A stretch of DNA of 64,000 nucleotides from Lineus longissimus (lineage: Eukaryota > Nemertea > Pilidiophora > Heteronemertea > Lineidae), in contig NC_088317.1 in NCBI RefSeq assembly GCF_910592395.1, forward strand, positions 3,906,001 to 3,970,000. Reading direction: 5' to 3'. Numbering within the stretch: the stretch's first letter is position 1; each line of letters starts with the position of its first letter. The translations under genes and the position numbers were made by a program. A model generated the notes under the pieces. The model was not told the DNA's origin, searched no databases, and saw nothing but the letters and a program-made list of their open reading frames with translations. This document shows positions 3,001 to 43,300 of the stretch, piece by piece.

Positions 3001-6000
3001 ACTCGGGACCAAAATCAGTGTCCTAAATAGAGAGGATGTCCTTCTGATAGAGGTGTCCGTTGTAGTCTGATTGGAAAAAAAGATGGTTCTTCAGATGATA
3101 CAGCCAAATCTGGTCGTCTTGATCAGAGATAAACGAATCTACAAAAATGTTCAGCAATTCGATGTACGTAACAGATAATGATACCAAGGATTATGTGTTA
3201 TCGAGTTCTAGATATCTGTGAACGGTGACAATATTTCATCGGTAATGTTTACTTTGTCAGAAAAAAAGTCGTTTGTAAACACAACTTCGTGACGAATTTG
3301 GCCTTCTGGCGCTTTGTCGGCAAATTATATCCATCGAGTCTGTCGATTGAGTTTTCATTGAATATAATTTGATTGTTTACTATGTGTGGCATGATAGCTT
3401 CCGTGAAGCTTCCTGAGTAGGCCTGGATGAAGTGTTGTCGCACCTCTCTAACAAGTCACCTCTCCAAAGACGACTCGTACCGCAAAACATCAGCGGTTTC
3501 GTCCGTGTGGTCTGTTCAGCTGGGTGTCCATGGAGGCATGTAACCTCTCTGTTCGGAGGTCTATTTTGATTCCTGTAAAGGGGTCTTTGATAGAGAATTA
3601 TGTGAGACCAGCATCCTGTAGGCCTGAAGGCCATGCTGGAGTAACCCCTCTTCAAAAAGTCATAATGACCACAAGCATCTCTTGAAAAAGACACCAATTC
3701 CGTGTGTGTCCAGGACACTTCTCTGTCATGGACATTCTGTTCCAATCCGTTGAGTGTCCTCAGAAGAGAGGTTCCCAACGCCATATGAGACGATATTGAA
3801 AAATGCCATAACAGGAAATAATGGGCCTAATTGCACGACAGGAGGCCCCGGTTTCGTGATGTCATCCGCCCATTTAACGAAATTAGGTTAGGTATCTCGT
3901 AGATGAAGTGGGCTGCATTTATAAGGACTCAAGTATACGTTGTTATCAGAAGTATTTTGGGAACCATCGGATGCGGACGTGGACCTACAGTTTGCCGCTG
4001 GTATACCAGTCAGTTTTGATAGTCAGACATTACTTGAAAAAACAATTCTTACAGCTTTGTTGTGGATAACTTTTCCATCTGCTCTTTATTTATCTGTGAT
4101 GTTCAATTCTGAAATTTGCGTACTATTGCCTTCGTATTGTCGAGAACGTCTATCAAAATTCTAAACATTGGGGCGTGTATCTGATCACAACCACCTGCTT
4201 AGAGACTCTCATTCAAGTCCAACCTTGCGAGACGTAAAAAATATCATTCTCCTTACAGTTGTGAATTCGAAGAATAGGGGCGGATAGTCGGGTTTTCATA
4301 TATCATTGCGGAAAGTTGACTGTAGGATTGTAATTGTCAGTACCAGCATTGTTAGAAAGTGGCAGTTATTGATGTGAAAACCATCCTATTTTCTAAGGAC
4401 GCGTGCCACGGTTGAGATATTGTATCAGAACTCTCAGCTACCATCATAGTTTGGCCATTTCGTGACAGTCTCGTGTGAAGAAGACGTGTTCGGGAAATCA
4501 CGCAAGGACTTGATATTTGGTTTTAGTGCCGATTATCAGTAAAATCAGGATGGAGTCTCGCTTGATACAAAGGATTTTAGATCACAGCATTCACTATGCT
4601 AAGATCATGAAAAACAACAGGTAGGGTCATAAAGTTTGTTTCTCTTGAAAAGAGAGCTTAGAAATGGTGCAGAATTTAGTGGTTGGTAGTTATAACTTTT
4701 GATTGTATGTAAGATTAGAACAGCCTACATAATGTATCATTGTATTCATCATTGGCTGCGGGTGATATTCATATAAATGTCTGTCTATGTCTCCCCTGGA
4801 ATGATGATTTAGGTGGATTAAGTGGTGGAATGGCCTACTTTTGTAACTGCCTGCAGACAATGCTGCATGGGCAAAATAATGACAAATTGGATGCCCCAGA
4901 ATTTAGGATTCTGAAAAAACAACACAAAGGCAACAGCACTGAAGAATAATGTGCAATGATCTCATCTTGTCTGTCTGCAGTCTTGAGATAAGAAAAAGTT
5001 CAAGTGGAAATGTTACCGGGTATCAGACATGGCTGAGATGTGAATATGATATTGACTACATGTAGAGCGTAGAAAGAAGATCCTTGTTGAAGTAAACCAG
5101 GCAATGAGAATCTTCCTTGGGGAGTTTGAGACTGGTACTCCTGCTGGCCTCGTTCTATTCAACCGATACACGTGTGGCTCCCACTCCACTGAAACATGCA
5201 AAATATTTGCCAAAGACTTTGCCAATGCATCCTATGCCTATTTGCTATCTTGTCGACTAAGTATACTTAGCCTTTGATCATGTTGATACCACTATTAGAC
5301 AAACGTCTACAGATTGTTGGAATTCTCAAAGTTTTCTGGGTTCACCTCTACAAAATATACACCTGATGTACACCTGATGTACTGTGCACTCGACATGAAT
5401 GGGTGAAAAAATGGAGAGTCTCGGCCCTTTGAACTTATCTCCAGGAAGTTTATATTGACACTTCCATAGCCTTTATTTCAGCCCAAGCGAACTTGAACTT
5501 GCTATACATAAAGCATATAATCATGTACATTATACACTGTAGCGTATGCCAGCTTGTGTTGACATGAAGATAACTATGATACACCTCTCAACTGATTGAT
5601 TTCACCGACAAATTGATTTAGAATGTAACGTATCGTCGTTCTGTGAAATTTTTGAGGTGTGAAGTCACCCGGTCACGTTGGTGCAGCAGAAGTTTCGAAC
5701 TTTTGACAAGGACTATCAAAATACAGGCTGTTGACATGCACTGATGACCAAACCAGAAGCAAACTTGTTGAAGACTGATATTCTGAGTAAAACCTGTGAT
5801 AGCAAGTTCATCCTGGTTTTGTGCTGGAAGTTTTACATTGTAATTTTGAACTGGAATAGTTATGTAAATTTTGTTAGAGAACACTGCTTCCTTCTATACT
5901 ATTCACTTTGACAGGTATCGACAAAATTTTTTATTTCATAATCAGCCATTTTATTTTCATTTTCTGTGTTCCCGTTTCAGAAATGACCGTCATCAAGACT

Positions 6001-6115
6001 TTTTGCAGGGGGCTTTTGAGTCTATTTATCAATATCAATTCAGGTGTCAAAACGTTCGAAAAGAGATTATTTGAAAAACAACATTCTTACAAAACTTTCT
6101 ATTCCATCGTTGCAG
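1..6115. other. No recognisable gene; upstream of Nck
   Basis: I find no open frame with family resemblance here on either strand. A splice acceptor (TTGCAG) ends at 6115, just before the first Nck coding exon, so part of this stretch is probably 5' UTR exon(s) and intron of Nck, but I cannot place the upstream exon or the promoter. The only repeat I can name is a fragment of a MITE-like family near 2.9-3.1 kb. Stretches rich in 'cctctct/agagagg' at 3.4-3.8 kb may be another degenerate copy. Confidence 0.5.
2938..3075. repeat. Degenerate MITE-like repeat fragment (GTGTCC/agagagg family)
   Basis: It contains phrases such as 'atagagaggtgtcc', 'gggaccaaaatcagtgtcc' and 'agagaggatgtcc' that recur in better-preserved copies at 20445-20626, 25006-25140, 40854-40985 and 52148-52326. 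The termini are not intact here, so this is a relic. Confidence 0.55.
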
Positions 6116-6137
6116 GTTGAAGGATATGAAAACAAAG

Positions 6138-7694
6138 ATGTCTGAGGAGGTGGTCATCGCGAAGTATGACTATACAGCGCAGGACAAACGGGAACTCAAC
6201 ATCAAAAAGAACGAGAAACTGTTCCTCTTGGACGATTCGAAACATTGGTGGAAGGTTCTAAACTACAAATCACAGGCAGGTTTCGTGCCGTCGAACTATG
6301 TGAAAAAGGTGAAACCGGGTTTGTTTTCCAGTCTGCGGAATACGCTTGGTCGGAGGAAAAATAGTCATGACAAAGGTGCAGCCGCGGCTTCGATTAAAAA
6401 TGGCGGAGCGGTATGTGATCGTACAGACTCGACAGATATTGAAATACTGCCATGTAAGAATGTCTCGGCAGTGGTGCGGTATGCGTACGAGGCGCAGAAA
6501 TTGGACGAAATGTCTTTAGTCAAAGGTGAAATCATTACTGTTATAGAAAAATCCAGCGACGGCTGGTGGCGGGGGAAGAAAAAGACGTCCGAGGAGGGCG
6601 GGTGGTTCCCGTCAAATTACGTCATAGACTGTTCTGAGGAACCGAATTCAAATACGTTACCCTCAGGTTTGATTCCTGCTGATCCCACGCCGCTGCGGGA
6701 AAACGGCGTCGCGACGGAAAGCGTGGAAATCGTACTGACTATGTACCCGTTTACGAGTAATACCGCGGAGGAGTTGTCGTTTGATTGTAACGAGAGGTTG
6801 GAGGTTATCGAGAAGCCGTTGTCTGATCCGGATTGGTGGCGTGCGAGAAACGCTCAAGGTGCTATTGGACTAGTGCCGCGCAACTATGTACAAGTTGTGG
6901 ACTCTGATTTTGAAAATACGCTCAGTATGTCGCAGTCACATTCGAACTCTAGTATAAGTGGCGGGAACCTTTCGACGAGTAATTCGCTCGGACTGAGCGC
7001 GATGGTCGCCGGTTCAGCGACTAACGTTCGGAGTCAGTTTGATATATCTGGCCCGCTGATGGATAAGGAATGGTACTATGGTAAAATATCCCGGCAGGAG
7101 TGTGACGATATGATGAATGAGTTTGCGGAGAATGGGGACTTTTTAATCAGAGACAGTGAATCAAAGGTGAGAAGAATGTGAACTAAAATTCCCCCCTGAC
7201 TGGTACATCAAAGTGTGTACGAAAGTAGTTCTTTTGGCAGGCAGTCGCATTATGGAAATAATCCTGGTTGCAAGTTAAAATACAGATGAGGATGACAACA
7301 AAGTTTCACTTGCTTTTCCTAAAACCCTAAAATCACTGTGTTGATGCCATTAACCAAGTTAAGCCCTGTCGGTCACACATAGGCCTTTAGCACAGGCATC
7401 CCTTTACCAGCTTAATTGCGTCGACACTTTATCCATGCCAAATATCATTCTAACTTTCCTCTTTCATCTTTTCAGGCCGGCAACTTTACAGTCACGTTAA
7501 AAGCTGAACACAAAAATAAGCACTTTCGCGTCATACTTACCGACGATATGTACTGCATCGGCCAACAAACATTCGACTCTTTGGACGATTTAGTTGACCA
7601 TTATATGAAACATCCGATCTACAAACACGAGGTGGAAAAACTCTACTTAATAAAACCGTTCGTTCACCCGGAGGATAGGATGAGCAAGTTATAG
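6138..7694 (+). CDS. NCK1: Nck-family SH2/SH3 adaptor protein
   Basis: Nck is a cytoplasmic adaptor that links phosphotyrosine signals, through its SH2 domain, to actin regulators such as WASP/PAK-type partners, through its SH3 domains. Coding exons are 6138-7166 and 7476-7694. The junction is phase 0 (AAG|GTGAGA donor; TTTTCAG acceptor) and gives 415 aa, slightly longer than the roughly 380 aa of vertebrate Nck. I see three SH3 domains at about residues 4-60, 112-170 and 200-258, each with an ALYDY-like start, a WW motif and a P-S/R-NYV end. A C-terminal SH2 lies at about 310-405 with FLIRDSES, which carries the phosphotyrosine-binding Arg. The SH2 is split by the intron right after that motif. 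I chose ATG 6138 (MSEEVV, like vertebrate MAEEVV); an in-frame ATG at 6126 would add four residues. The assignment to Nck is secure, but NCK1 versus NCK2 is not meaningful in an invertebrate single-copy gene. Confidence 0.95.
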
Positions 7695-7825
7695 GATTGG
7701 CGATTCCTGGACTTATGGCGCAGTGGTCCGGTTTGAAGACTACCTGTGACCGTGGTTTAAATGCGAAAAGTGATTCACCGGCAATTTTTATAAAACCCCG
7801 CAAAACTGAAGAAAGTGTCTCCACT

Positions 7826-8060
7826 CATACATACATACATACATACGTACCGAATTTCTATAGCACCCGTTTCAAGCTGATGCTCATTCACGGGCGCTTT
7901 ACATTGTTACATCGGCTTACAGAAGGCACTAGTTGAAAAGATGTGTTTTGAGCATTTTTTTAAAGATGTTTCGACTGGGTGCCTTCTGTAAGCCCTCTGG
8001 CAATTGGTTCCAGAGCTTGGCGGTGAAAACGCTGAACCGCCGTTGAGATGTATACTTTAA
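7826..8060 (-). mobile_element. CR1/L2-type LINE 3' end, truncated relic
   Basis: Read on the minus strand, the sequence encodes the last residues typical of CR1/L2 reverse-transcriptase ORFs (a LWNQLPEG motif followed by FKKMLKTHLF and a stop). The usual 3' hairpin follows (AAAGCGCCCG...GGGTGCTATAGAAAT), and then a short-period microsatellite tail (CATA/TATG repeats at 7826-7850). It is 5' truncated with no reverse-transcriptase core. A similar 3' tail lies at 18668-18760 and a longer relic at 22365-22680. Confidence 0.7.
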
Positions 8061-10659
8061 AAAGCCAAATTTCCTCGGGTGGTTTTTTTGCCGATTTTAC
8101 CAATAACCTCGATACGCAGATCTATTATAATGGGGAGTTTGTATTTTCATCTCAAGTGGAAATAATTTCTTCAGTCATGTTTGATGCCACAATGTAATCA
8201 ATGGATTATTTCACTGGAGTTAAAGATAATCAAGAAACCTCCAAAGTGAAGTTTTCTCACCTACAGCTGATGAATGGTAGACTATACAGCAAGATTAATC
8301 AAGATTGGTGTTTTATTAGCTAAATCTTGAATGTTGATCAAAATGTATTCTGAAATGAGTTATAAGTTATTGTTTGTATTCATTTGAAAGTTGATTCTTG
8401 GTTTGATGCAAGATGTCACCTCCCTCTTTAACCAGTTGTATTTACTAGGGGTTGACATTTTTGTCGGATTTAGATGTCGGCATAAAAGGGGTCAGCGGGA
8501 ACATGTTCAGTGGGCTACACCCTATGTAAAATAGAATTCTTTACGTCCCGCAAAAGTTTATTGTCAACTTTCTGACACTCAGAAGTCTATTGTGGACTTT
8601 TTAATTTGAAGAGGGAACAGCCTTTTACTGTTCTTTCTCCAGAGGGTTATTCCTGAATGTTTCAAATCCTGAGTTGAAGTGACGTTAGCAAGGCTAAGTT
8701 TTCCTGTATTCCGAAAAACTGTAAGGAAGGATGACATCATTGTAATGATTAAAGTTGAATTAAAAAATGCCCTAATATGCCTGGACTTGGGGTTAGTCGG
8801 ATTTCAATATGCTTAGAGACTTTCTGTACAAAAAAAACATCTAGTCGTGGGCCTTGTGAAATATGCTTAGTAGTGTTCTTTTAATTTGAAACAACAATAT
8901 GAAAATAATTCATACTTAACTTTTCAGAACCCCCTCAGATATTTCACGATATTCAGAGAGCCGAAATTTGCTGACTCTCTCTGGTGTAACCAGTCAGTGT
9001 TTTGATGAAAGCGCTTGGTGAATCCGACCTTCCGAATATTTGCTATTATTGGAGAAATCCCACCTTTCAAGTCAGTTATGGTGCTTATCAGTTGACCTTG
9101 ACTCAAGGTCATTGTGACTGGTGTAAAGGTCAAAATGTGACCTTGGTGTAATCAACTTCAAGGTCACTTGGAATATATTCATGTGTTATTGATGTAATTG
9201 GTATAAATGGGTAGAATATTCCAGATGTAAATAGAATTTGTATGAAAATTGTCCTGGGTTTTGCCACATGGACAATTTACTAAGATTTTCTGTTATTTGA
9301 GGAAAATAAAATTTTTGTGTTGAGCTTCAAATATTTGGAAATGATTGTATCATAATTAAATGACCTGTGTGTTTCAAGAGTTGATGGTTCAAATTTGTGG
9401 CCAAATTTTTCATGGAGTGTAACAAAACTGATGCTCATTTTGACTCGTGCCTTGTTGTCTTTGCCTAGCTCAAGTAAATAAAAACCACAGATCAAAGTAA
9501 TATGACCAGTAGCTTGCGCTCAAGAGCCCAAAACAAAGATTAAAAATGAATAAATGGGCCAAAGACATCGTTTGGGTATACAGTATGCTGTACAATAGAG
9601 GCTTTGTTTACCAATGATATTGTGTTCAAAACCAAAAAAAGGTTTGTTACTTACAACCAGATTTCTTACTGGAAACGACTTTGTGAATACTGTGAAATGC
9701 AATTTGTTTCTTTTCTCCTTTTTCCTGCTTTTGCTTGTTGAAAATATGGTCAGTAAGAAATACATGTACGTGTATAGGATATTAGAACTTAAATTGTCAA
9801 AAAAAGGTATTTTACGATGTGTTTTATATTCGAAAGTCGATGTGCAGAATAGTCCTGAAGTTGAACTGGACTTCAGAGTCTATAATGGGGATGTTTTAGT
9901 TTCTCTGCCCTTACAATGTATGAAGGTTATCATACGTAACAAAAGACAGGGGTCAGTCTCGTGGAAGAAGTAACTCATTACTTGCCTCTCATAGTTTAAA
10001 TTCCATAAAACAATGTACAAGTCATATTTATTGAGACACCCCGTAGGTCTGATTAGTAATACATGTGTACCAACGGGCAGTGAAGAAAGCAGTCATTACA
10101 TTCATATGTAAATAGTCATTACCTTGCATGTTTCAGTGTTTGCTGATTTTGCTTCTCGGTTTATGCAAGTATCAATGTGTGCCTTGTACCCTCCCTCCTC
10201 AACGTTTTCATTTTGATATCTGTTCGGGTCAAGCATCATCACTAAATTGCAATAAATACTTGGTTAAAGCAGTCGTACCTGAAAACGGCAACCGACAACA
10301 CACCAACTAAAATTAAAACAAAGATTTCAACTTATCACTGCAAGTATTGGAAAGGTTGTCATAGATTCATTGACCGATCTTGATCAGCAAGGGGAAGGGG
10401 GGAGGGTGGTATGAGATACACATTGAAAAGTGCATTGTGCGTTCATAGAAACTGAGGAGAAGACATGGCAATGGTATTATATTAAAAATCTTTCGGTTAT
10501 TCAAGTAGGTCTCGCACCAATCTATTTCCTATTTCACAAGTGATTTGCATGGCCAAATGGCCTGCCTAAGTTATGCTTTATTATATGAGGGAGAGGCAGA
10601 GGTTGTCATGCGACTTAACACGTTAGTCCAGACTATCCAGTCACCGAGTAGAACTCAGC

Positions 10660-27932: not shown

Positions 27933-27938
27933 TGTTTT
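27933..27938. repeat. Target-site duplication TGTTTT, left copy (element Y)
   Basis: TGTTTT immediately precedes the terminal TACGGAAGCG and recurs at 38814-38819 right after the opposite terminus CGCTTCCGTA. This marks Y's insertion. Confidence 0.85.
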
Positions 27939-27948
27939 TACGGAAGCG

Positions 27949-27954
27949 TATTAG
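27949..27954. repeat. Target-site duplication TATTAG, left copy (element X in Y)
   Basis: These are bases 11-16 of element Y's left end. The same TATTAG recurs at 35370-35375 directly after X's right terminus, where Y's end resumes with TGCCAAC. Confidence 0.88.
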
Positions 27955-27997
27955 TACGGAAGCGTATTAGTGCCAACAAAAAAAATAAAAAACTAAC

Positions 27998-28716
27998 TCA
28001 TACGTACGACTTATTATCGCATTCGTTTGACTTTTTGACTCATACGTACGACTTGTTATCGCATACGTACGACTTATTATCTTATACGTACGACTTTTAT
28101 CTCATACGTACGACTTATCATCTCATACGTACGACTTATTATCTCATACGTATGAGATATTATCTCATACGTATGAGTTATTATCTCATACGTACGACTT
28201 ATCATCTCATACGTACGACTTATCATCTATGAGTTATTATCTCATACGTATGAGATAATATCTCATACGTACGACTTATCATCTCATACGTACGACTTAT
28301 TATCTCATACGTATAATATATTATCTCATACGTATGAGTTATTATCTCATACGTACGACTTATCATCTCATACGTACGACTTATCATCTCATACGTACGA
28401 CTTTTATCTCATACGTACGACTTTTATCTCATACTTACGACTTTTATCTCATACGTACGACTTATTATCTCATACGTATGAGTTATTATCTCATACGTAT
28501 GAGTTATTATCTCATACGTACGACTTATCATCTCATACGTATAATATATTATCTCATACGTATTAGTTATTATCTCATACGTACGACTTATCATCTCATA
28601 CGTACGACTTATCATCTCATACGTACGACTTTTATCTCATACGTACGACTTATCATCTCATACGTACGAGTTATTATCTCATACGTATGAGTTATTATCT
28701 CATACGTAGTTGAATA
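27998..28716. repeat. Left palindromic-unit array in the TIR of X
   Basis: About 34 units of roughly 21 bp follow the pattern TCATACGTA + (CGACTT, TGAGTT or TGAGAT) + ATTATC. Each is centred on the palindrome TACGTA, and many form the 12-bp palindrome TCATACGTATGA. The first units carry TCATTCGT-type variants (cattcgtttgac). The opposite-strand version lies at 34961-35345. Long frames across it (LIRTTYY-type repeats) are artefacts of the period. Confidence 0.92.
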
Positions 28717-29370
28717 CATGTAGACTCTCAGTCTCGCCACAGAGGGCCTCCGCTACGCTACGCGTATAGCCGCCATTTTGATTCTCACCACGTGCGCACC
28801 GATTTTTGCTTGTCCTGTCGATCGGCTCTTATTAGCTCAGCATCTGTACAGTTTGGTAGGTATTGTCAGTCCAGATGGCCAGGTCAATATGAAGAGAACG
28901 CCCAATAATATGAAGAGAACGCCCAATATTAATATTGTCTCTCAGATACCTGGGAAACGCACGAGATTGAGAGCATCTCAGTTTCAAATTCTTTTGTGGA
29001 GGAGGTCCCCCATTAGGCCTAGACCCCCCGCCAAAGTTCGCGCCTGCGGTGCTCACATATTCGGGCTTCGCCCTCAATAGAGCCCCCCCCCCCCATCCAG
29101 CTACGCTGGATCCGCCCCTGTAGTCTGTACAAACGATGTCTCTTACAGGCCTAGGCCGATCATATCTTGATGAGGATCATGGAATGAAGTGACACAACTG
29201 TGTAGTTATAAATCTCAAGCCTCAAGAACCGACACACTCTCCTCTTTTATTCAACATATATAGGGCCTATATTTATATTCAATATTCTGAGTTTGAAAAT
29301 ATATATATCGAAGTTGGCGGTGCGGGTTACTGATCAAGATTGTATAGGCCTACGTTTATTGTTTCAGGTG

Positions 29371-32104
29371 ATGGCCGGAGAGGAGAAAAACAAATTGATG
29401 TGGCTGGAGTTTATGAGGGAAAGATGTGGGGAAGATGTCTTAGAACGATTGGAAAAAGACAAGGTAGGTAGCCAATGCAGGCCTCGCATAAAATTGTTGA
29501 TGCCGGTATATAAGCCTCTGTCACCCTATTCCAGCAGCCATGGGACTGTTACACAGGCCGACAGGCGCAATGACTCACAGGTATAGCCTGTTGTGTTAGC
29601 TTTATTTATATCTTCTGTCACAACTGGTCATTCACAAAAAATTCTACCTCCGAGATCCGGCCAGTGATAATGCAACCCTGCTCTTGGGCAGGTCTTCCAT
29701 CACATAAAGTTCACCTTCACAAAAACTATTAGCAGTCATACCAGAGACACAGCCAATGTCACAACCCTTTATTCAGTTATTACAACCCTGGAGGAATTAT
29801 AAAAAAGTTAATTCAAATAAACTACGTTATCTAAAAAGAAACCAGTAGTTTAATTATTAGGAAAGAAATGACAGCATCCTTTTTCCTCTGATTGCAGATC
29901 GATCACATGAATATCCAGCTGTTGAGTGATGTAGAGCTGAGTACCTATGTGCCGATCATAGGGGATCGACTGGCCGTTCGTCACTATAAATTTGATGAGG
30001 GATCCAGAAGTTTGCATCAAGCAACCGGCACTAGTACAAGGGTTGATCACGAGTATGAAAAGCGAACACTGTTTACTAAGCTCCGCGAAAAAATGGGATT
30101 GCATTCGGCAGGAGGAAAGGGTAGCGACGATAAGAAAGATAGTGAGCACAATACCAAGAGCAAAGGAAAAGGGAACAAAAAGACCACTCGGGTGATCGAA
30201 ATCGGCTGGCTGCATCAAGGGAAGCAGATCAGAAATCGAATGGGGGGAGGAACGAGGAAAGTGACAATGTTAAAGACTTCTGGCAAGAAAGAGCTTCTCG
30301 CCGAGGCGAAGAATCTCTTCTTTACAAACGGCAAATCAAAATTTTGTCGCATAGAGGATGTATTATGCGACATCCTCGATTTTCAGGAAGGGAAACTTCC
30401 CGATGGTGCAACCGTTGGGCACATCTATGAAGAGGTTAAAATGGGTTTGGTGAGGGTGTACTTGTCAACTCGTTTGATAGAAAAGACAAGTTCTGATGTT
30501 GCCGGTGTGGTCGACGATGAAGAAGAGGTAAATGATCACCTGCCTATCATTTCGTTTAGTCCGAACTCAACAGTAGTAAAGACAGGGCCAGTAAGTCCAG
30601 ACTACCATTATTGGGAGGATGACGACACGCTACCTTTTGTTGGAAGCTGCGAGCTTGTAACAACATCCACTCCAATCGCTGAACACACTGTAGAGCCGAA
30701 CAGACCTACAACAACTTCGCCCCGCTTTAAGTCCAATATACTTGCCATGGAAGATTTTCCACCAACACTTCCTGATATAGTTCATTTCCGCGCCAGAGGT
30801 ACATCCAAGGCTAGCCATGAATCACCATCGTCCAAGCCTTCAGCATCGTCAAAGCCTTCAGCATCGCCAAAGCCTTCAGCATCGCCAAAGCCTTCAGCAT
30901 CAGTTGCCAAACTGGATGACAATCACAATTCGCCATTACCTACGTCATCAGGTGCCAATCCGCCGGCTTCAAACTATGAATCACCTTTACGAATGCCTAC
31001 AGCGTCAGTTGCCAGTCACTCGTTATCATTTGGTTTTGAACCCTCGCTTGAAGTTGAACCGTCATTTCATGAGATCTTGGACAATCGATCCAGTTATATG
31101 GGCGTCAGCTCAACCTTAATAACGCTCCACAGGGCAAAACTTATGGAGGAAATGGTTACAAATTTCAAGGACTCTGAAATCGTAGATTCACCAACCAGAT
31201 TTTCTTTCATTGATGAGCGAGGTATCGACAGTAGCGGCGTTTCGAGGGATGCATACTCTCTGTTCTGGAAAGAACTGTTTTTACGTGCTTCAGAGGGGGA
31301 GGAATGCAGAGTTCCTGTTATATTGGCTCACTGGCAAGATGAAGAATGGAAAGCCGTTGGAAGAATTCTCATGAAGGGTTACATAGATCATGGTTTCTTT
31401 CCACTAATGCTTGCAAAAGCTTTTACTGTAGCCCTAGTGCTAGGAGAGCAGCAGGTGACACCGGAATGTTTGTATGAATCGTTCATGACGTACCTAAGTG
31501 GGGTAGACCGAGATGTTGTGAAGGAGGCCATGGCGGGGACGTTAGATGAAGAGAACCAAGAAATGTTTGAAGAGCTATGGATCGCTTTGGGTACACCTCG
31601 ATACCCTCAGAAAACATCAGAGGCACCCTGATACAGATCGCCCATAAGGAAATAATTCAAAAGCCAATGTACATATTGGATAAAATGGCGGAAGTTTCAA
31701 GAGATACTCTTCAACCAAAGCTACCCACTTGTACGCAAATAACAGAGATGTACGAGGTAAGGAGGCCAACACCAAGACGACTAAACAAGTTGCTGAGGGC
31801 TATAACAACAACAAGGGCCGAACGAAATACTTTTTCATTCCTTAAGCGATTCATTTCTGCACTTGACGAAGCATCTTTGAAAGGTTTTTTGAGGTTAATG
31901 ACGGGGGCCGACAGTATCGTAGTTGATGGGATCAACGTTACCTTCAGCCGACTTGAGGGAGTCGAACGGCGTCCAATATTCAGAACGTGTGGTCCATGTC
32001 CGACTCTGGAATTGCCGAGCACCTATCAAACCTACCCGGATTTTCGGATGGAATTGAAATCGGTGCTCGACAATCCAGAGTCGTACAAAATGGACATGGC
32101 GTAG
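29371..32104 (+). CDS. SAM-like/HECT-domain protein of transposon X (frameshifted)
   Basis: The first exon is 29371-29463 (ATGGCCGGAGAG, donor AAG|GTAGGT). The second starts at 29898 after TTGCAG, in phase 0, and runs to a stop at 31631. A second frame (to 32104) continues the homology. The N-terminus (about 1-60) is a small helical, SAM-like module with a DKID...GDRLAV stretch. About 125-230 is a second conserved module (IEIGWLHQGKQ...GGGTRK). Then come a Ser/Pro linker with a KPSAS repeat (30826-30905), a HECT N-lobe-like region (about 31.1-31.6 kb) and, in the other frame, the C-lobe ending RTCGPCPTLELPSTY, like the Cys-containing end of HECT E3 ligases. The -1 frameshift lies near 31.56-31.60 kb. 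The family looks like the G2E3-type HECT proteins found in fish and invertebrate repeats. Ubiquitin-ligase activity is inferred only. Confidence 0.75.
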
Positions 32105-32219
32105 GCACATTGTGTTTTCCTTATCAACGGTTTTAGGGATATTTTCATGAGCCTTTTGAGTCCTCTCCACAATAAATGCCAATGTGTATGGCTGCAATAT
32201 GTGTTTTAAAAGTATCATT

Positions 32220-32740
32220 ACCTGGGCTAAGATTAATGGTTGGCCTATTTTGGTTGTCTTTGGTATAGGGGGTGCAAAGAGAGCCCCCCCCCCACCCACC
32301 CTGTGTTCAATCTAATCGTTGTTTGTAATTGTACCTTATATGCCAAGATTAATGGTTGACCTATTTTGGTTGTGTTTGGTAGGGGGTGCGAAGAGAGCCC
32401 CCCACCCTGTGTTCAATCTAATCGTTGTTTGTAATTGTACCTTATATGCCAAGATTAATGGTTGACCTATTTTGGTTGTGTTTGGTAGGGGGTGCAAAGA
32501 GAGCCCCCCCCCCCCACCCTGTGTTCAATCTAATCGTTGTTTGTAATTGTACCTTATATGCCAAGATTAATGGTTGACCTATTTTGGTTGTGTTTGGTAG
32601 GGGGTGCAAAGAGAGCCCCCCCCCCCACCCTGTGTTCAATCTAATCGTTGTTTGTAATTGTACCTTATATGCCAAGATTAATGGTTGACCTATTTTGGTT
32701 GTGTTTGGTAGGGGGTGCAAAGAGAGCCCCCCACCCTATT
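32220..32740. repeat. 106-112-bp tandem repeat with variable poly-C, inside X
   Basis: Five near-identical units (ccaagattaatggttgacct...gtaattgtaccttatatg) differ mainly in the length of a C run. It lies just 3' of the HECT gene, between the two convergent genes of X, where their transcripts would end. Confidence 0.9.
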
Positions 32741-33521
32741 GTTTGTACATGTAATTATCTGTGCCATCAACTATTAAAGTAGCTGACTTATTTTGTTGAT
32801 GGCATATTGTTTGCTGAAAGGAATGCCGAGTCCCATTACCAATAAAACGCATTTTCTATACTTGTTTTTGTTACTGTTCTGAAATTCTTGGTTGTCAGAC
32901 GATCGGTATGGATGTGTATTATCATAAATTCTTGACATATTACTCATAGGTAATATATTCTTGGTATTATCAAGAATATATATTCTTGGTGTTATACACA
33001 ATTGTATTAAGTCGTACCATTGATTGATTGGTAGAGCAGGCGGCAACATCCCGGTAATCGTACCGGTAGTTTGGGAACACAGTAGATAGTTTTAAAATGG
33101 CTGGGAGAGCATCCAGCATTTTTGTCCTGACAGAGCCACAGTTGAAATCCTGTAATCATCCTGTAATCATCATCACCTTCTTCTGAGGTTTAGCACACTT
33201 TTCTACATTACCAACTTTGGAAAAGTAAACTTAAACATGTTTTTCAGTGCATGCCTTACTTTGTTCATTTTATAACAATCGTAATACCACTATGTGAATA
33301 TATTATACATGAATAAGTACACACATCACGTTAAAAGTCGCTATAAGTCCCTCTCGCACCTGAACAACTGATACGGCAGCTACAAGGACATGAAAGTTTC
33401 AGGTTTGCCGTGAGAGGGACATTCCCCAGACGTCGTCAGCCTTGCATACCTTGGAAGAAGGCCTACCAGTCAGTTTTTGGATCAGTTAGTGATTGTGCCT
33501 TGGAAGCGAGACACAGCAACC

Positions 33522-34915
33522 TCAAAGATTTGTAAGAATTTCATTTCTTAGGTATCGGTACAACAAAAGCCCCTCCGTGGGGGTTGTCGGGGGAGACAAG
33601 CCAGCTTCTGCCATTAATAGGCACGACAAGTCAAAAACGTCTTCGTCGCAAGGAAGACGGCCCTTGGGTGTGCATTCTGTGAGGCATGTATCTACCTGTT
33701 GGTCCGTTACCGCGCAAATTTGGCTTTCTCCCCCGACGAGATGTGGTAGGTTGTACATCATCAGCGGTCTACCACTAGGCGCTATTTGATTACGACAGGG
33801 ACGAATTCTGTGACAATTCCACAAGTGGACAAGCTCGTCAAGATCGTTCTGGAAAAGAAAGAGATGTGTATAGGTTATCTGTTCACAACACTCTGCATTG
33901 ATAATATAATTTCCTCTTCTATCTATTTATGTATTTTGTACTCATCTTTGGGTGAGTTAAACATCAATGAAGTGTTGTCATGCACCGATCTCACCCCCAC
34001 TTACCGGTAGGCCTACATGTACCGGTAACTAGCTATGAACTCGGCGGTAAAGCTAATAAGACTTTCTGGACCAGGGCTTACCTGAATTAATTGCATGAAG
34101 CAAAATTGGGTCAAACATTTGTCCAAGCGGTCACCTGAGAAGTCGTCGTTTTCTTTCATTTCTTGGAACAGATTCATCCAAAACTGAGCATTTTGTCTTC
34201 GATTCATTGACCACCAGCACTCGATTCTTTGATTGTGGTTACTTGATCCAAATATGACACTTCGCCTGCTGAACTCATCAACGTGGTCATGTCTCATGAA
34301 CCTCTGCATATCTGCGACATGTCCATTCTCAGTACCTGGATCCATCCTTAGCCTTTTCGGGCAACCCCTTCGACTTCGAATTGCTTGCATGAAGTAACTC
34401 GCGATAACGGCCGGATCACTGTTTGTACGATAGGCTTCAAGCCACACGAGGAATCTGGAAAAACCATCAATGCACCCATTGATGCATATGCCGAACGGTT
34501 TTAACTTGTCATACCCATCAATGTGCCAAGCGAAGTCGGGTCCCGGGTTTTGATAAAGGCGCCTTCTCAGCCTGTTCCGTCGCCTGTATGCAACTCCCTC
34601 AGGATCGATGATATGTTGTAGATAACGAACTTCATTCTGAGTGACGACAAGTCCGTTTTGTATGCACTTCAAGTGCATGAACTTGTAACCATGAAGTTTC
34701 CCTGCCGCCTCCACCTCTTTCATTATAAACAAAGCAACGTCAAGTATGTCAGCCTTATTCTTGCGTCTGCATAAGCCAGACTTGGAGAGGATCCGGTTCA
34801 AGGTCTGGAGACTGAGTATGATGCCGTCGACATGAGCTAGTGTTTTTATAATCTCTTTGTAATTGAGCCCCAGATAGAAATAGACGCGCACCTTGTCACC
34901 AACGGCGTCCGCCAT
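33522..34915 (-). CDS. DDE integrase-type transposase of element X (IS3EU-like)
   Basis: This is the likely transposase that cuts and pastes the element. Exon 1 is 34915-34082 (donor CAG|GTAAG) and exon 2 is 33848-33522 (acceptor TTTTCCAG), phase 0, giving 386 aa with no internal stop. Residues 1-60 form a helix-turn-helix-like N-terminus with a basic CRRKNK. The catalytic core shows Asp133 (WHIDGYD), Asp192 (RMDPGTENG) and Glu232 (NQRIECWW), spaced D-39-E as in retroviral-integrase-fold enzymes. The exon-2 product starts NDLDELVHLWNCHRIRP, a stretch typical of the C-terminal part of these integrases. It converges with the HECT gene. The intact frame and perfect target duplications argue that X was recently active. 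The superfamily name rests on recall of motif layout, not on a search. Confidence 0.88.
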
Positions 34916-34960
34916 TTTAGAATTCGACAGAACCAGATCCGTACGGCGTATAGTAACTGG

Positions 34961-35345
34961 TACGTATGAGATAACAAGTCGTAGGTATGAGATAACAAGT
35001 CGTACGTATGAGATAACAAGTCGTACGTATGAGATAACAAGTCGTACGTATGAGATAACAAGGCGTACGTATGAGATAACAAGTCGTACGTATGAGATAA
35101 CAAGTCGTACGTATGAGATTACAAGTCGTACGTATGAGATAATAACTCATACGTATGAGATAATATCTCATACGTATGAGATAATAAGTCGTACGTATGA
35201 GATGATAAGTCGTACGTATGAGATGATAAGTCGTACGTATAAGATAATAAGTCGTACGTATGTGATAACAAGTCGTACGTATGAGTCAATAAGTCAAACG
35301 AATGCGATAATAGGTCGTACGTATGAGTTAGTTTTTTATTTTTTT
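34961..35345. repeat. Right palindromic-unit array in the TIR of X
   Basis: About 18 units of GATAACAAGTCGTACGTATGA-type sequence form the inverted counterpart of the left array. Most carry AACAAG and some ATAAG spacers. The array begins about 45 bp upstream of the transposase start codon, so the same repeats could also act in that gene's promoter. Confidence 0.9.
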
Positions 35346-35402
35346 TGTTGGCACTAATACGCTTCCGTATATTAGTGCCAACAAAAAAAAATTAAAAACT
35401 AT

Positions 35403-35932
35403 CTCATACGTACGACTAATTAAGTCGTTCGTTCGAGTTAGTATCGCATTCGTTCGACTTTCTATCTCATTCGTTCGACTTTCTATCTCATTCGTTTGAG
35501 TTAGTATCTCATACATATGAGATAATAACTCATACGTACGACTTATCATCGCATACGTACGACTTATTATCTCATACGTATGAGATATTATCTCATACGT
35601 ATGAGTTATTATCTCATACGTATGACTTATCATCTATGAGTTATTATCTCATACGTATGAGATAATATCTCATACGTACGACTTATCATCTCATACGTAC
35701 GACTTATTATCTCATACGTATAAGATAGTATCTCATACGTATGAGTTATTATCTCAATATGTACGACTTATTATCTCATACGTACGACTTATTATCTCAT
35801 ACGTACGACTTATTATCTCATACGTATGAGTTATTATCTTATACGTATGAGTTATTATCTCATACGTACGACTTATTATCTCATATGTATGAGTTATTAT
35901 CTCATACGTATGAGTTATTATCTCATACGTAG
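35403..35932. repeat. Left palindromic-unit array of element Y
   Basis: The units are as in X, with early variants (cgttcgttcgag, cattcgttcgac). The array is followed by the same subterminal sequence (gtagttgaatacatgt) that follows the array of X at about 28713. Confidence 0.9.
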
Positions 35933-36599
35933 TTGAATACATGTGGACTCTCAGTCTCGCCACCAGAGGGCCTCCGCTACGCTACGCGTATAGCCGCCAT
36001 TTTGATTCTCACCACGTGCGCACCGATTTTTGCTTGTCCTGTCGATCGGCTCTGATTAGCTCAGCATCTGTACAGTTTGGTAGGTATTGTCAGTCCAGAT
36101 GGCCAGGTCAATATGAAGAGAACGCCCAATATTAATATTGTCTCTCAGATACCTGGGAAACGCACGAGATTGAGAGCATCTCAGTTTCAAATTTTTTGTG
36201 GAGGAGGTCCCCCATTAGGCCTAGACCCCCCGCCAAAGTTCGCGCCTGCGGTGCTCACATATTCGGGCTTCGCCCTCAATAGAGCCCCCCCCCCCCCCGT
36301 CCAGCTACGCTGGATCCGCCCCTGTAGTCTGTACAAACGATGTCTCTTATAGGCCTAGGCCGATCATATCTAGATGAGGATCATGGAATGAAGTGACACA
36401 ACTGTGTAGTTATAAATCTCAAGCCTCAAGAACCGACACACTCTCGTCTTTTATTCAACATATATAGGGCCTATATTTATATTCAATATTCTGAGTTTGA
36501 AAATATATATATCGAAGTTGGCGGTGCGGGTTACTGATCAAGATTGTATAGGCCTACGTTTATTGTTTCAGGTGATGGCCGGAGAGGAGAAAAACAAAC

Positions 36600-38090
36600 T
36601 GAGGTGTCGAGTGTGGCTACGTTCCGCCTACTCTCAAGTTTGCTCAGGTGAAGCCTCTGATAAAGAAACCATCTCTTGATAAAGACATCCTCAGCAATTA
36701 TCGGCCAGTTTCCAATCTCACCTTTGTATCAAAGCTCGTTGAAAAGGTGGTGGCTTGTCGTTTGCATGAGCACATGTCGTCGAATGGTCTGTTTGATACC
36801 AATCAGTCTGCATACCGTAAGTGCCATAGCACCGAGACAGTTCTACTGAAGATTACGGATGACATTCTTACAGGCATGGACAATGGAAATGAGGCAATTC
36901 TTGTCCTTCTTGATCTCTCTGCCGCATTCGATACTGTCGACCACAGTATTCTCATTGACAGGTTGCAGCAGAGACTTGGTCTAAAAGACACTGTGTTGAG
37001 GTGGTTTTCATCCTATCTCCATGGCAGGACACTGTCGGTTGCTGTTGGTGGTTGTTGCTCTGAGCCGATCTCCCTTCACTTCGGTGTGCCTCAGGGCTCT
37101 GTGTTGGGACCCATTCTCTTCACCATCTACAACTTGCCACTTGGTGATGTCATGCGGAACTGGACCATTCCTTTTCAATTGTACGCTGACGACAACCAAC
37201 TTATAAATTTCATGAGGTGTGGTGATGTTGGAGAGTGGTGTGGTTGTTTCCCGCACTGAGGATTGCATATCGGGGGTTGGGGATTGGCTTGTTGCAAACA
37301 AACTTGCTTTAAATGCTCCAAAGACGGATATGCTGAACATTGTATCGCTAAGAAGGACAGGTTCAGTTCAAGGTATCACTGTAAATGGAGTCTGGGTCCC
37401 TAAGTCAAGCATGTGAAGGATCTTGGTGTTTGGCTGGATGAGGGCATGAGCATGCAAGCTCAGATAAAAAATGTTTGCAAGGCCGCCAATTTTAGCTTAT
37501 ATAAGATAGGTAGGATCAGAAAGTATCTTAATCAGCCTTGTACTGAGCGGCTTGTTCATGCCCTTGTCACGTCAAAACTTGATTACAATAACGGGCTACT
37601 ATACGGATTGCCTAAACGATCCCTTGTTCCTCTCCAACTGTTACAGAATCGAGCTGCGAGGCTGGTCAGTAGAAAACGGAAGCGTGAGCATATCACACCC
37701 GTGCTAAAAGAACTGCACTGGCTTCCGATTGAGGCACGTGTTCAGTTCAAGGTGCTACTTCACTGTTTCAAGGTGCTCCACGGACTGGCCCCTGGTTATC
37801 TCCATCTACCTCTCGAAAAAACTGTTCGTCATACGAGGTCCTCATCTAGTGTCAGGTTGCTAGCAAAACGCACCAGGACCTCGTATGGCGACAGAGCCTT
37901 TTCTGCATGTGCCCCCTTCCTATGGAACCAGCTCCCCTCTGAAATCAAATCAATCCAAAGTACCAATATTTTCTCCTTCAAGCGTCAGCTGAAGGCATGG
38001 CTATTCCGTGGAGCTTTTTGAGGAGTAGCGCCTTGAACACGTTTTTTCACGGTGGTAAGGCGCTCTATATAAATTTTACATTACATTACA
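36600..38090 (+). pseudogene. CR1/L2-type LINE reverse transcriptase, degenerate
   Basis: Reverse-transcriptase blocks are visible in order: SNLTFVSKLVEKVV, AFDTVDHSILI, VPQGSVLGPILF, YADDNQL (catalytic YADD), DLGVWLDEGM, then the C-terminal LWNQLPSEI and FKRQLKAWLF. The reading frame changes near 37.21-37.26 kb and back near 37.41 kb, so the copy is dead. It is 5' truncated, with no endonuclease, and ends with an AAGGCGCTCTATATAAAT hairpin and a TTTACATTACATTACA tail. It replaces about 5.3 kb of element Y. Confidence 0.88.
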
Positions 38091-38094
38091 AGGC

Positions 38095-38356
38095 CGTTTT
38101 GTATGCACTTCAAGTGCATGAACTTGTAACCATGAAGTTTCCTTGCCGCCTCCAAATCTTTCATTATAAACAAAGCAACGTCAAGTATGTCAGCCTTATT
38201 CTTGCGTCTGCATAAGCCAGACTTGGAGAGGATCCGGTTCAAGGTCCGGAGACTGAGTATGATGCCGTCGACATGAGCTAGTGTTTTTATAATCTCTTTG
38301 TAATTGAGCCCCAGATAGAAATAGACGCGCACCTTGTCACCAACGGCGTCCGCCAT
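38095..38356 (-). pseudogene. Truncated transposase 5' end in element Y
   Basis: From ATG 38356 the first roughly 85 codons match the X transposase almost residue for residue (MADAVGDKVRVYF...), then the frame runs into the LINE tail at 38090. The catalytic core is absent, so it cannot be active. Confidence 0.88.
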
Positions 38357-38399
38357 TTTAGAATTCGACAGAACCAGATCCGTATGGCGTATAGTAACT

Positions 38400-38790
38400 G
38401 GTACGTATGAGATAACAAGTCGTACGTATGAGATAACAAGTAGTACGTGTGAGATAACAAGTCGTACGTATGAGATAACAAGTTGTACGTATGAGATAAT
38501 AATTAAGTCGTACGTATAAGATGATAAGTCGTACGTATAAGATAATAAGTCGTACGTCTGAGATAATAAGTCGTACGTATGAGATAACAAGTCGTACGTA
38601 TGAGATAATAAGTCGTACGTATGAGATAACAAGTCGTACGTATGGGATGATAAGTCGTACGTATGAGATAAAAGTCGTACGTATAAGATAATAAGTCGTA
38701 CGTATGAGATAACAAGTCGTACGTATGAGTCAATAAATCAAACGAATGCGATAATAAGCCGTACGTATGAGTTAGTTTTTTATTTTTTTT
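38400..38790. repeat. Right palindromic-unit array of element Y
   Basis: About 18 TACGTA-centred units lie in the orientation of the right TIR, followed by the A/T-rich stretch and the terminus TTGGCACTAATACGCTTCCG. Confidence 0.9.
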
Positions 38791-38813
38791 GTTGGCACTA
38801 ATACGCTTCCGTA

Positions 38814-38819
38814 TGTTTT
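38814..38819. repeat. Target-site duplication TGTTTT, right copy (element Y)
   Basis: This matches 27933-27938 and directly follows the right terminus ending CCGTA. Confidence 0.85.
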
Positions 38820-40374: not shown

Positions 40375-43300
40375 TCAGACTGTCTTGCTTAGCCTCCGAC
40401 TGAAGCTGTAGAGGAACTTGAAGACGCTGTCCATGCCTTCGGACTTGAGGTACTTCAAGTATACCTCACTGGGATTGACATCGCTGTCTATAGGGTTAAT
40501 CTGAAAAAAGTTTAATTACATTTCAGTGTCAGTTTCATAGAATGAAAATGACTGCAAGTTGTCTTAACTTTACCTCACAGGCCATGGTGAGCTCTGTATG
40601 ACTCATGTTGGATAAAAACACATGAAAATTATCTTGACCAGTTCTGTATTTATATCGAGAAATGTTACGCTGTGTTTGTTTATGACTTCCACTTAAACAA
40701 ATCGGTCACTTGAAGAAAAAGGCACAACCAGATGGCTGAGTTATTAAGACAACAGTTAACATTGAAACTTACGCTTAGGTCATCTGGAACAGCTTTGGAA
40801 TCTGGAGGCTGCGTCTGAAACAGAAAACATGTTGATATAGAAAAGAAAATCTGACCTTAATCAAGGGGTGTCTGATTATAGAGGTCAAATTGAATGAAAA
40901 CAACCAATTTCGGACCAGAACTAGTGTCCTTACTAGAGAGGTTGTCCTTAATAGAGAGGTGTGTGCTTAGGGAGGTCTCACTGTAGCTGCATGTTGTGCA
41001 ATAGAATATGGAATTAAATGAATACACACCAAAGTGAGAAAATCCCATGCAAAGCCTATCATTGCCGGACTCCGGTAGATACTATAACAATGACTTGGAC
41101 GAGGTATGGTCATTTTGCGAATCAGATCGGGGTCCAACTGGAATATCGAATAGTCCTCGGTTACGGTGAAGGCGCGACACAACCACAATGCGTCCATGAT
41201 GTTACGTATGTATCCGTTGAACGTCAGGATTTCATCAAAGCCTCGCTGCGATTCTGGGAACTCCTCATTTGAGATTTCGGATTCTTTCAAATCCTGGAAG
41301 GCCTTCCGGCACCTTGAAATAAAGAAAAGGATGTCCATGAAAAAGATCCGAAAATTTACATTTCTTACAAAGGCATGTGAGAATGGATACATTACCTAGA
41401 ATCTCATGTACAATGTATTAGAATACCGACACCCGGACATTACTTGAAAACTTTGCAATGTTCAAAAAGACGTGTTCAAAAGCACATCCTCTCAAAATGT
41501 CAAAGATTGGCAGCCACCAGGAAGACGACTAAGCCAAAACATGCCTCCAAGACCAGCTGCATGGAGGCAAATGGTTATGGACAACAACCAAAACATGCCT
41601 CCAAGACCAGCTGCATGGAGGCAAATGGTTATGGACAACAACCAAAACATGCCTCCAAGACCAGCTGCATGGAGGCAAATGGTTATGGGCAACAACCAAA
41701 ACATGCCTCCAAGACCAGCTGCATGGAGGCAAATGGTTATGGACAACAACCAAAACATGCCTCCAAGACCAGCTGCATGGAGGCAAATGGTTATGGACAA
41801 CAACCAAAACATGCCTCTAAGACCAGCTGCATGGAGGCAAATGGTTATGGACAACAACCAAAACATGCCTCCAAGACCAGCTGCATGGAGGCAAATGGTT
41901 ATGGACAACAACCAAAACATGCCTCCAAGACCAGCTGCATGGAGGCAAATGGTTATGGACAACAACCAAAAACATGCCTCCAAGACCAGCTGCATGGAGG
42001 CAAATGGTTATGGACAACAACCAAAAACATGCCTCCAAGACCAGCTGCATGGAGGCAAATGGTTATGGACAACAACCAAAAACATGCCTCCAAGACCAGC
42101 TGCATGGAGGCAAATGGTTATGGACAACAACCAAAACATGCCTCCAAGACCAGCTGCATGGAGGCAAATGGTTATGGACAACAACCAAAAACATGCCTCC
42201 AAGACCAGCTGCATGGAGGCAAATGGTTATGGACAACAACCAAAAACATGCCTCCAAGACCAGCTGCATGGAGGCAAATGGTTATGGACAACAACCAAAA
42301 ACATGCCTCCAAGACCAGCTGCATGGAGGCAAATGGTTATGGACAACAACCAAAACATGCCTCCAAGACCAGCTGCATGGAGGCAATTGTTTATGGACAA
42401 CAACCAATTTCATCATCGACATCAAACTTTCAAACTTACAGGATCATGTTTTCACACAGCCGGGCCAACGTCAGTCCATTGTTGGACAAGAGAGGGCTGT
42501 AGATGCACAAAGTTGGTGGCAGCAACACAAATGGAACACGGTACTTGGGGAAGACTGAGACAATCTGGAAATAATGAGAAAACGATTGGTCATCAATGAT
42601 TTCTCAAAGTTTGATATCCAAAAGTCGAAAACCAGACAGACAACATTTACAGTAGTTAGTTTTGTTTCTTAGTTTAAACTACTTCAAATTAACAGAAGTG
42701 CACTTAAGATGAGGCCAAAGATAGAACAAATGTGACCCGCTCTACCAAAACTAGGCACTTGTCGCATCTGAACTTGACAGGTTGATACGGACTTGTTCAT
42801 TCCCTATTGTAGACCTTTTGTGAAATGTGACCAAATCAGTTTGTAATAGATTTCACAAAAGGTCTACAACAGGGAAATTAACAACAAGTCCGTATCAACC
42901 TGTCGAGTTCAGATGCGACAAGTGCCTAGTTTTGGTAGAGCGAGTCACAAATGAAACCAAGCTGTTAACTATATTTTTAAACTAATACATGTATTAACTT
43001 AAAGATAGTGGTTCAAAACTGTATCACGGATAATGCTCACCACATCCAAAAGGTTGAATACACAGTTTGAGAGCAGCACGTGGCACCCTTCAGCCTGAAT
43101 GGCGAGGCTACAGATGTCCAACATGTAGGCCATCGTGTCTTTGAGAATCTTGTATGGTTTGAGTTCTTCGACTTCTTCCTGGAAAACTGAGTAACTGGAA
43201 GAGAGAAGGACACCTTGTTAGGCAATTGCGGACGTGTGGGATACAACATTCTCTCATCTTATATACAATTCATGTACAATTTTGGTTTATGACCATTAGA

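Follow-up and report, generated by a model that had tools for sequence, protein, structure and literature searches.

In a window of 64,000 nucleotides of the Lineus longissimus genome (by window we mean the whole stretch of DNA analysed), two transposons of one family lie one inside the other. Almost certainly element Y inserted first, and later element X, a member of the same IS3EU/GingerRoot-type family, inserted into the left terminus of Y and duplicated the hexamer TATTAG. From left to right the locus consists of TGTTTT, the left 16 bp of Y, X, TATTAG, the rest of Y and TGTTTT (Table 1). The terminal 16-mer TACGGAAGCGTATTAG is found without mismatch at 27939-27954 and 27955-27970 on the forward strand, and at 35354-35369 and 38798-38813 on the reverse strand. 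In shuffled sequences only 0.01 matches are expected even with up to two mismatches allowed, and none of 100 shuffles reached four. These four perfect termini bear out the proposal of an initial annotation that a second terminus starts at 27955 and that X ends at 35369; the TATTAG pair that it read as the duplication made by X on entering Y, and the TGTTTT pair that it assigned to the outer edges of Y, were likewise recovered at the positions it gave. X and Y have the same orientation. The entry point lies ten bases inside the left tip of Y, and the site used corresponds to terminus positions 11-16. Including X, Y spans 27939-38813, and its own length is 3,454 bp once X and one TATTAG are removed. 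The string CCGTA-TATTAG-TGCC occurs a single time in the window, and the junction TACGGAAGCGTATTAG+TACGGAAGCG was found at one place in the 391-Mb assembly with up to three mismatches, search counts being lower bounds here and below.

The order of the two events is supported by copies of Y that were never interrupted. When X and one TATTAG are removed, Y aligns along its full length with L035 (99.54% identity, 7 gap positions), and over its length with L022 (99.71%, 8 gap positions) and L033 (99.65%, 6 gap positions), both on the reverse strand; against L032 the identity is 98.95%, rising to 99.58% when the core alone is considered. The uninterrupted terminus is present at both ends of five other Y-type copies. 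L035, L022 and L033, at 99.5-99.7% identity to Y minus X, thus provide the empty site that the initial annotation had called for, and its further claim of an insertion into the terminus of a sibling, with Y first and X second, is upheld by them. The nested arrangement is established as firmly as an assembly permits, and X in Y exemplifies an ordinary type of event with great clarity.

To place the locus within its family, copies were collected through exact-type matches to the terminus, a set from which diverged copies will be absent. The exact genome search with TACGGAAGCGTATTAG gave 46 places, the pattern of the inner terminus gave 49, adding one locus (L071), and a DNA search with a short copy contributed a few degenerate copies. 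Outside the window, 27 stretches were cut around 16-mer matches and all 27 were examined. Nineteen independent two-ended insertions were counted: X, Y, L022-L036, L039 and C7:11828443-11828962. An exact 6-bp duplication flanks 15 of the 19: TATTAG, TGTTTT, GCCTGG, CAATAC, CATTTA, CATAGC, GTTTAA, TATATC, GGATTC, CGTCCT, CTTTTC (flanking the doubled end of L032 on its outer side), TATTTG, GAAATC, CATGGG and TAAATG. The element ends and the duplication length that the initial annotation had derived from this locus therefore agree with most other copies, although the check it proposed on those copies succeeded only in part, the remaining four having no recognisable duplication.

Some copies were kept out of this count. 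On C14, between 2.6 and 8.2 Mb, a short copy with CATGGG-type flanks is found at eight places (L036, L041-L046 and C14:2625219). Seven of them share the site of L036 and were treated as its duplications; in two of these seven (L043 and C14:2625219) the left CATGGG is altered by a base or a shift. The surroundings of L041 match those of the six other C14 copies compared, at about 93-99.6% in the longest pieces, and since the flanking sequence is common to the copies, this copy probably spread by duplication of its surroundings. A degenerate copy at C11:8346-8358 kb, represented by the pieces L064, L065 and L069, was also excluded; L065 and L069 break off into mutually reverse-complementary sequences, as if another inverted-repeat element had entered.

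Two simpler explanations of the locus were considered and rejected. The repeated 16 bp at 27939-27970 could be a local tandem duplication by slippage of one terminus, with no nesting, and short terminal duplications do exist in the family, in L032 (11 bp) and L025 (10+8 bp). Slippage, however, leaves unexplained the right end at 35369 and the exact continuation of the second terminus, as well as the second right end at 38813, the TGTTTT pair and the match of 99.5-99.7% to uninterrupted siblings, which contradicts it directly; we consider it extremely unlikely. It is equally unlikely that two separate copies were falsely joined during assembly. In favour of this reading, the arms consist of repeats and the genome holds near-identical copies. 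An erroneous junction would, however, have had to produce both correctly placed 6-bp duplications, each matching its partner, and the sections of PMC8593623 on the construction of the assembly report 79-fold coverage with PacBio HiFi-type long reads, the use of hifiasm and Hi-C, and manual curation.

Another aspect to consider is why X landed at this spot. We built a half-site target model from 14 duplication-flanked insertions, X in Y excluded, and 7 half-sites from one-ended copies. The resulting pattern is weak, roughly S-A-W-W-T-S, and mirror-symmetric or nearly palindromic. The leave-one-out statistic of the 14 sites was 36.2, whereas 100 random sets averaged 14.3 and reached 26.2 at most; the preference thus seems genuine, if weak. 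The motif is a very loose one: in an earlier full-site model, 6 of the 14 sites are equalled or outscored by more than 18% of background positions. In the half-site model the site hit by X belongs to the highest-scoring 0.37% of positions in the window and outscores every other position of Y from -3 to 100; when L033 is omitted it belongs to the highest 0.90% and comes second, after position 19. The full-site model gave 0.44% and 1.0%. The Y terminus thus carries a good target site of its own at positions 11-16, and because of this site the ends of siblings would be acceptable targets for the family. This preference, and the match of the hit site to models made from other insertions, are new here, and so are the superfamily fit and the place of Y in a non-autonomous subfamily with a retrotransposon fragment instead of the middle.

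Several observations weigh against this account. The four copies with no recognisable 6-bp duplication are L025, L026, L034 and C7:11828443-11828962, and one of them, L034, is a full-length sibling of X. The rejection of a misassembly was judged from the assembled sequence. The preference is built on 14 insertions, with a model made after the site had been seen, and in its first form the model put that site second best, not best, among the first 60 positions of Y, both times it was scored. Finally, a rough product over 19 insertions and 46 termini puts the expected number of hits on this exact site at only about 0.0002-0.0006. With so low an expectation even under the preference, either something more than preference is needed or the choice of this finding among many windows. 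There is room, consequently, for active self-targeting or for plain selection of the finding.

Active attraction of the family to its own termini, as in IS30 and IS911, for example through transposase bound at a sibling end, would make X in Y one product, and doubled termini such as that of L032 would be mobilised derivatives. If landing were uniform, 19 insertions would be expected to strike the outer 16 bp of any of the 46 termini 3.6e-5 times, which favours such attraction. The target of L033 also resembles a terminus in the same register (GAAGTG-TATTTG-TGTCAA compared with GAAGCG-TATTAG-TGCCAA); a similarity score as high as its 18 occurs at a fraction of 0.0002 of random positions, and more than half of these score at least 20 and are presumably real termini. 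This resemblance, however, was the top result among 28 orientation tests, 14 insertions having been compared on both strands, and by eye the wider surroundings of L033 are unlike a terminus. L032, a Y-type copy (C10:12640043-12644327, at 284-310), reads CTTTTC-TACGGAAGCGG-TACGGAAGCG and carries CTTTTC again at its right end, so that the duplication lies outside the extra 11 bp of its doubled left terminus; the extra bases may have travelled with the element, or slippage, which can yield doubled ends, may have added them once it had inserted. In L071 (C7:10917410-10917500, position 43; terminus at C7:10917452) foreign sequence takes the place of the outer ten bases, and the inner terminus starts precisely at position 11, the point at which X split Y. 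Against self-targeting stand the single true insertion into a sibling terminus among 19, and the geometry of IS30, which according to the relevant passages of PMC9333248 inserts beside the inverted repeat and forms a junction of two inverted repeats, in a process distinct from ordinary insertion with duplication; X sits inside the repeat with an ordinary duplication. We regard active self-targeting as unlikely.

A doubtful extension, to which we give little credence, would be that animal IS3EU-type transposases have two target modes, one for weak palindromic sites and one for the site at positions 11-16 of their own terminus, the latter making doubled ends. If true, some doubled ends would stay mobile (L032), the family would grow ends by self-insertion, and L033 and L071 would be further traces of it. 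Doubling is also seen in L025 (C4:12319623-12321191, at 283-316), a short copy whose left terminus is tripled by 10+8 additional bp and around which no target duplication was recognised. A genome search for doubled TACGGAAG gave 59 places, against 54 for a reversed-pattern control. By letters and coordinates 4 of the 59 belong to the family (the window, L032 and two overlapping places in L025), and among the 55 others 43 contain one or the other of two 29-bp motifs that overlap; these 43 we judge to be probably another repeat.

Returning to the insertion of X into a Y already in place, the course of events was very probably as follows. Y, a 3.45-kb non-autonomous member of the family, entered TGTTTT and duplicated these 6 bp. 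Full-length X, of 7.4 kb, later entered the left terminus of Y; its transposase would have joined the X ends to both strands of the terminus 6 bp apart, between positions 10 and 16, and gap filling after strand transfer would have doubled TATTAG. Such chemistry is established for DDE transposases in general, and we infer by analogy that it acted at the Y terminus. With two left ends lying 16 bp apart, X alone, Y with X, or mixed-end hybrids could in principle move.

Table 1. Features of the nested locus, in window coordinates
Feature	Positions	Strand	Basis or remark
Y outer target duplication, left, TGTTTT	27933..27938	.	right copy matches
Y left terminus, first 16 bp, separated from remainder by X	27939..27954	+	exact terminus match
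X target duplication, left, TATTAG (Y terminus positions 11-16)	27949..27954	.	
Element X, full-length, 7,415 bp	27955..35369	- (strand from transposase)	relatives L023, L034, L029, L031
X left subterminal array, 21-bp unit CTCATACGTACGACTTATTAT, 34.5 copies	27997..28708	+	
X putative passenger gene, open reading frame of 579 codons	29892..31631	+	one HECT-domain protein relative, P0121
X putative passenger gene, second open reading frame of 175 codons, other frame	31577..32104	+	weak match to HECT end
Minisatellite inside X, 106-112-bp unit, 4.6 copies	32229..32737	+	
Transposase, predicted exon 2, acceptor CAG before 33848	33522..33848	-	splice by eye against P0004
Transposase, predicted exon 1, integrase core PF24764 (rva_4), donor CAG|GTAAGC after 34082	34082..34915	-	splice by eye
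X right subterminal array, 21-bp unit, 17.5 copies	34960..35327	+	
X target duplication, right, TATTAG	35370..35375	.	
Remainder of Y, terminus position 17 to right end, 3,438 bp	35376..38813	-	
Y left subterminal array, 21-bp unit, 25.6 copies	35400..35931	+	
LINE (long interspersed nuclear element) fragment, reverse transcriptase PF00078, apparently 5'-truncated	36607..38087	+	alignment gap against X
Y right subterminal array, 21-bp unit, 17.5 copies	38401..38771	+	
Y outer target duplication, right, TGTTTT	38814..38819	.	

The subterminal arms of the family are arrays of the 21-bp unit, with 17.5 to 34.5 copies. X-type copies are L023, L034, L029 and L031, and X matches L023 at 97.2% and 98.5% in two long blocks. 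The predicted transposase matches PF24764 with an E value of 5.6e-27, and PF00665 weakly, below the cut-off; D, D and E were picked out by eye in WHIDGYDKLK, RMDPGTEN and NQRIECWW, as in P0004. Over the codons searched, no stop interrupts its exons in X, L023 or L034 (278, 278 and 277 codons for exon 1; 106 for exon 2). The 106 codons of exon 2 are stop-free also in L031 and L029, and exon 1 is fragmented in both. Since X, L023 and L034 keep an unbroken predicted transposase, the family is a candidate for bench work. A total of 629 related proteins were found; among the 120 matches listed the identity is 50-71%, except for one fragment at 88%, and the named ones come from fish, molluscs, sea cucumber and crinoid. 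The transposase gave no match against phage records, nor did exon 1 against solved structures at E values up to 1.

The passenger gene of X, in two overlapping frames, can be called HECT-like only. The 579-codon frame, for which only the 8,000 candidates sharing most words were scored, aligns with P0121 at 42% identity over 25% of the query (E 0.001); in L031 it is interrupted by a stop, in L029 it is split into three pieces of which two contain stops, and in L034 it is divided in two. The 175-codon frame matches the end of the HECT domain PF00632 with an E value of 0.0063, under the curated Pfam cut-off, and is stop-free and 97.7-99.4% identical in L023, L029, L031 and L034.

Y belongs to a small, non-autonomous subfamily with six known copies (Y, L035, L022, L033, L032 and L028), which its low divergence suggests to be young. 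The alignment of Y with X runs as far as Y1247 and resumes at Y2729; in all six copies the LINE fragment occupies the place of about 5.2 kb of the middle of X. L028 is a Y-type copy with about 6 kb inserted, and this interruption (about 2050-8170) holds an open frame of 1,181 codons with a retrotransposon-like look. Elsewhere in the window we observed an NCK2-like gene (6138-7178), which matches a Lineus longissimus protein at 100% identity across 99% of the query, and a tandem array of a 54-bp unit in 16 copies, with open frames in several phases (41534-42407).

A single locus thus shows exactly where the elements end, how long the duplication is and in which order the insertions took place, in a eukaryotic transposon superfamily that has been little studied, and the target preference together with its match in the terminus offers a testable account of nesting in a family's own ends. 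Compared with published descriptions, the ends, duplication length and transposase type appear to fit IS3EU/GingerRoot. For this superfamily the pertinent text of PMC10045372 gives TA..TA termini and usually 6-bp duplications. In the window TACGG..CCGTA stands at all four ends, the duplications are exact in 15 of the 19 copies and absent from 4, and the transposase has an integrase-type DDE core (PF24764). The part of PMC12730594 that deals with IS3EU of rust fungi describes TAYGG..CCRTA ends and passenger genes (TET/JBP, alpha-kinase). The Lineus family shares such ends, and the presence of a passenger gene as well, but its host is a nemertean, its passenger is HECT-like instead, and its arms contain arrays of the 21-bp unit of 0.4-0.7 kb. 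Among the literature matches listed, a scope outside which most subscription journals lie, there was neither a HECT gene in IS3EU nor a description of IS3EU in nemerteans; in the portion of PMC9587614 that matched, IS3EU appears only in a superfamily list and Lineus is named for KolobokP.

Other superfamilies were rejected. Ginger1 and Ginger2 have 5'-TG..CA-3' ends and, in the same text of PMC10045372, duplications of 4-5 bp, in place of the TA..TA and 6 bp found here. The ends are the firmer difference, because PMC10741241, the source for the TG..CA ends, reports duplications of 4-6 bp for Ginger with GingerRoot counted in. IS481EU is described in that portion of PMC10045372 with TNT..AYA ends and duplications of about 4, 15 or 25 bp, and neither was found. 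Targeting of the inverted repeat as in IS911 and IS30 is alike in outcome, since an element enters at the terminal inverted repeat of a sibling; the geometry is unlike that of IS30, as X entered 10 bp inside the repeat, between its positions 10 and 16, and produced the usual 6-bp duplication (TATTAG), with neither an adjoining insertion nor a junction of two inverted repeats. The doubled end of L032 recalls the tandem-TIR (terminal inverted repeat) Mutator-like elements of plants, whose doubled terminal repeats move as units, as summarised in PMC3310237. In those elements whole long TIRs are doubled, mostly at both ends, and some have been amplified, whereas here 11-16 bp are doubled on one side. 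Nested miniature inverted-repeat transposable elements of rice and maize, inserted into one another, were reportedly described by Jiang and Wessler in 2001; they belong to other superfamilies and use other target sites than the Lineus family.

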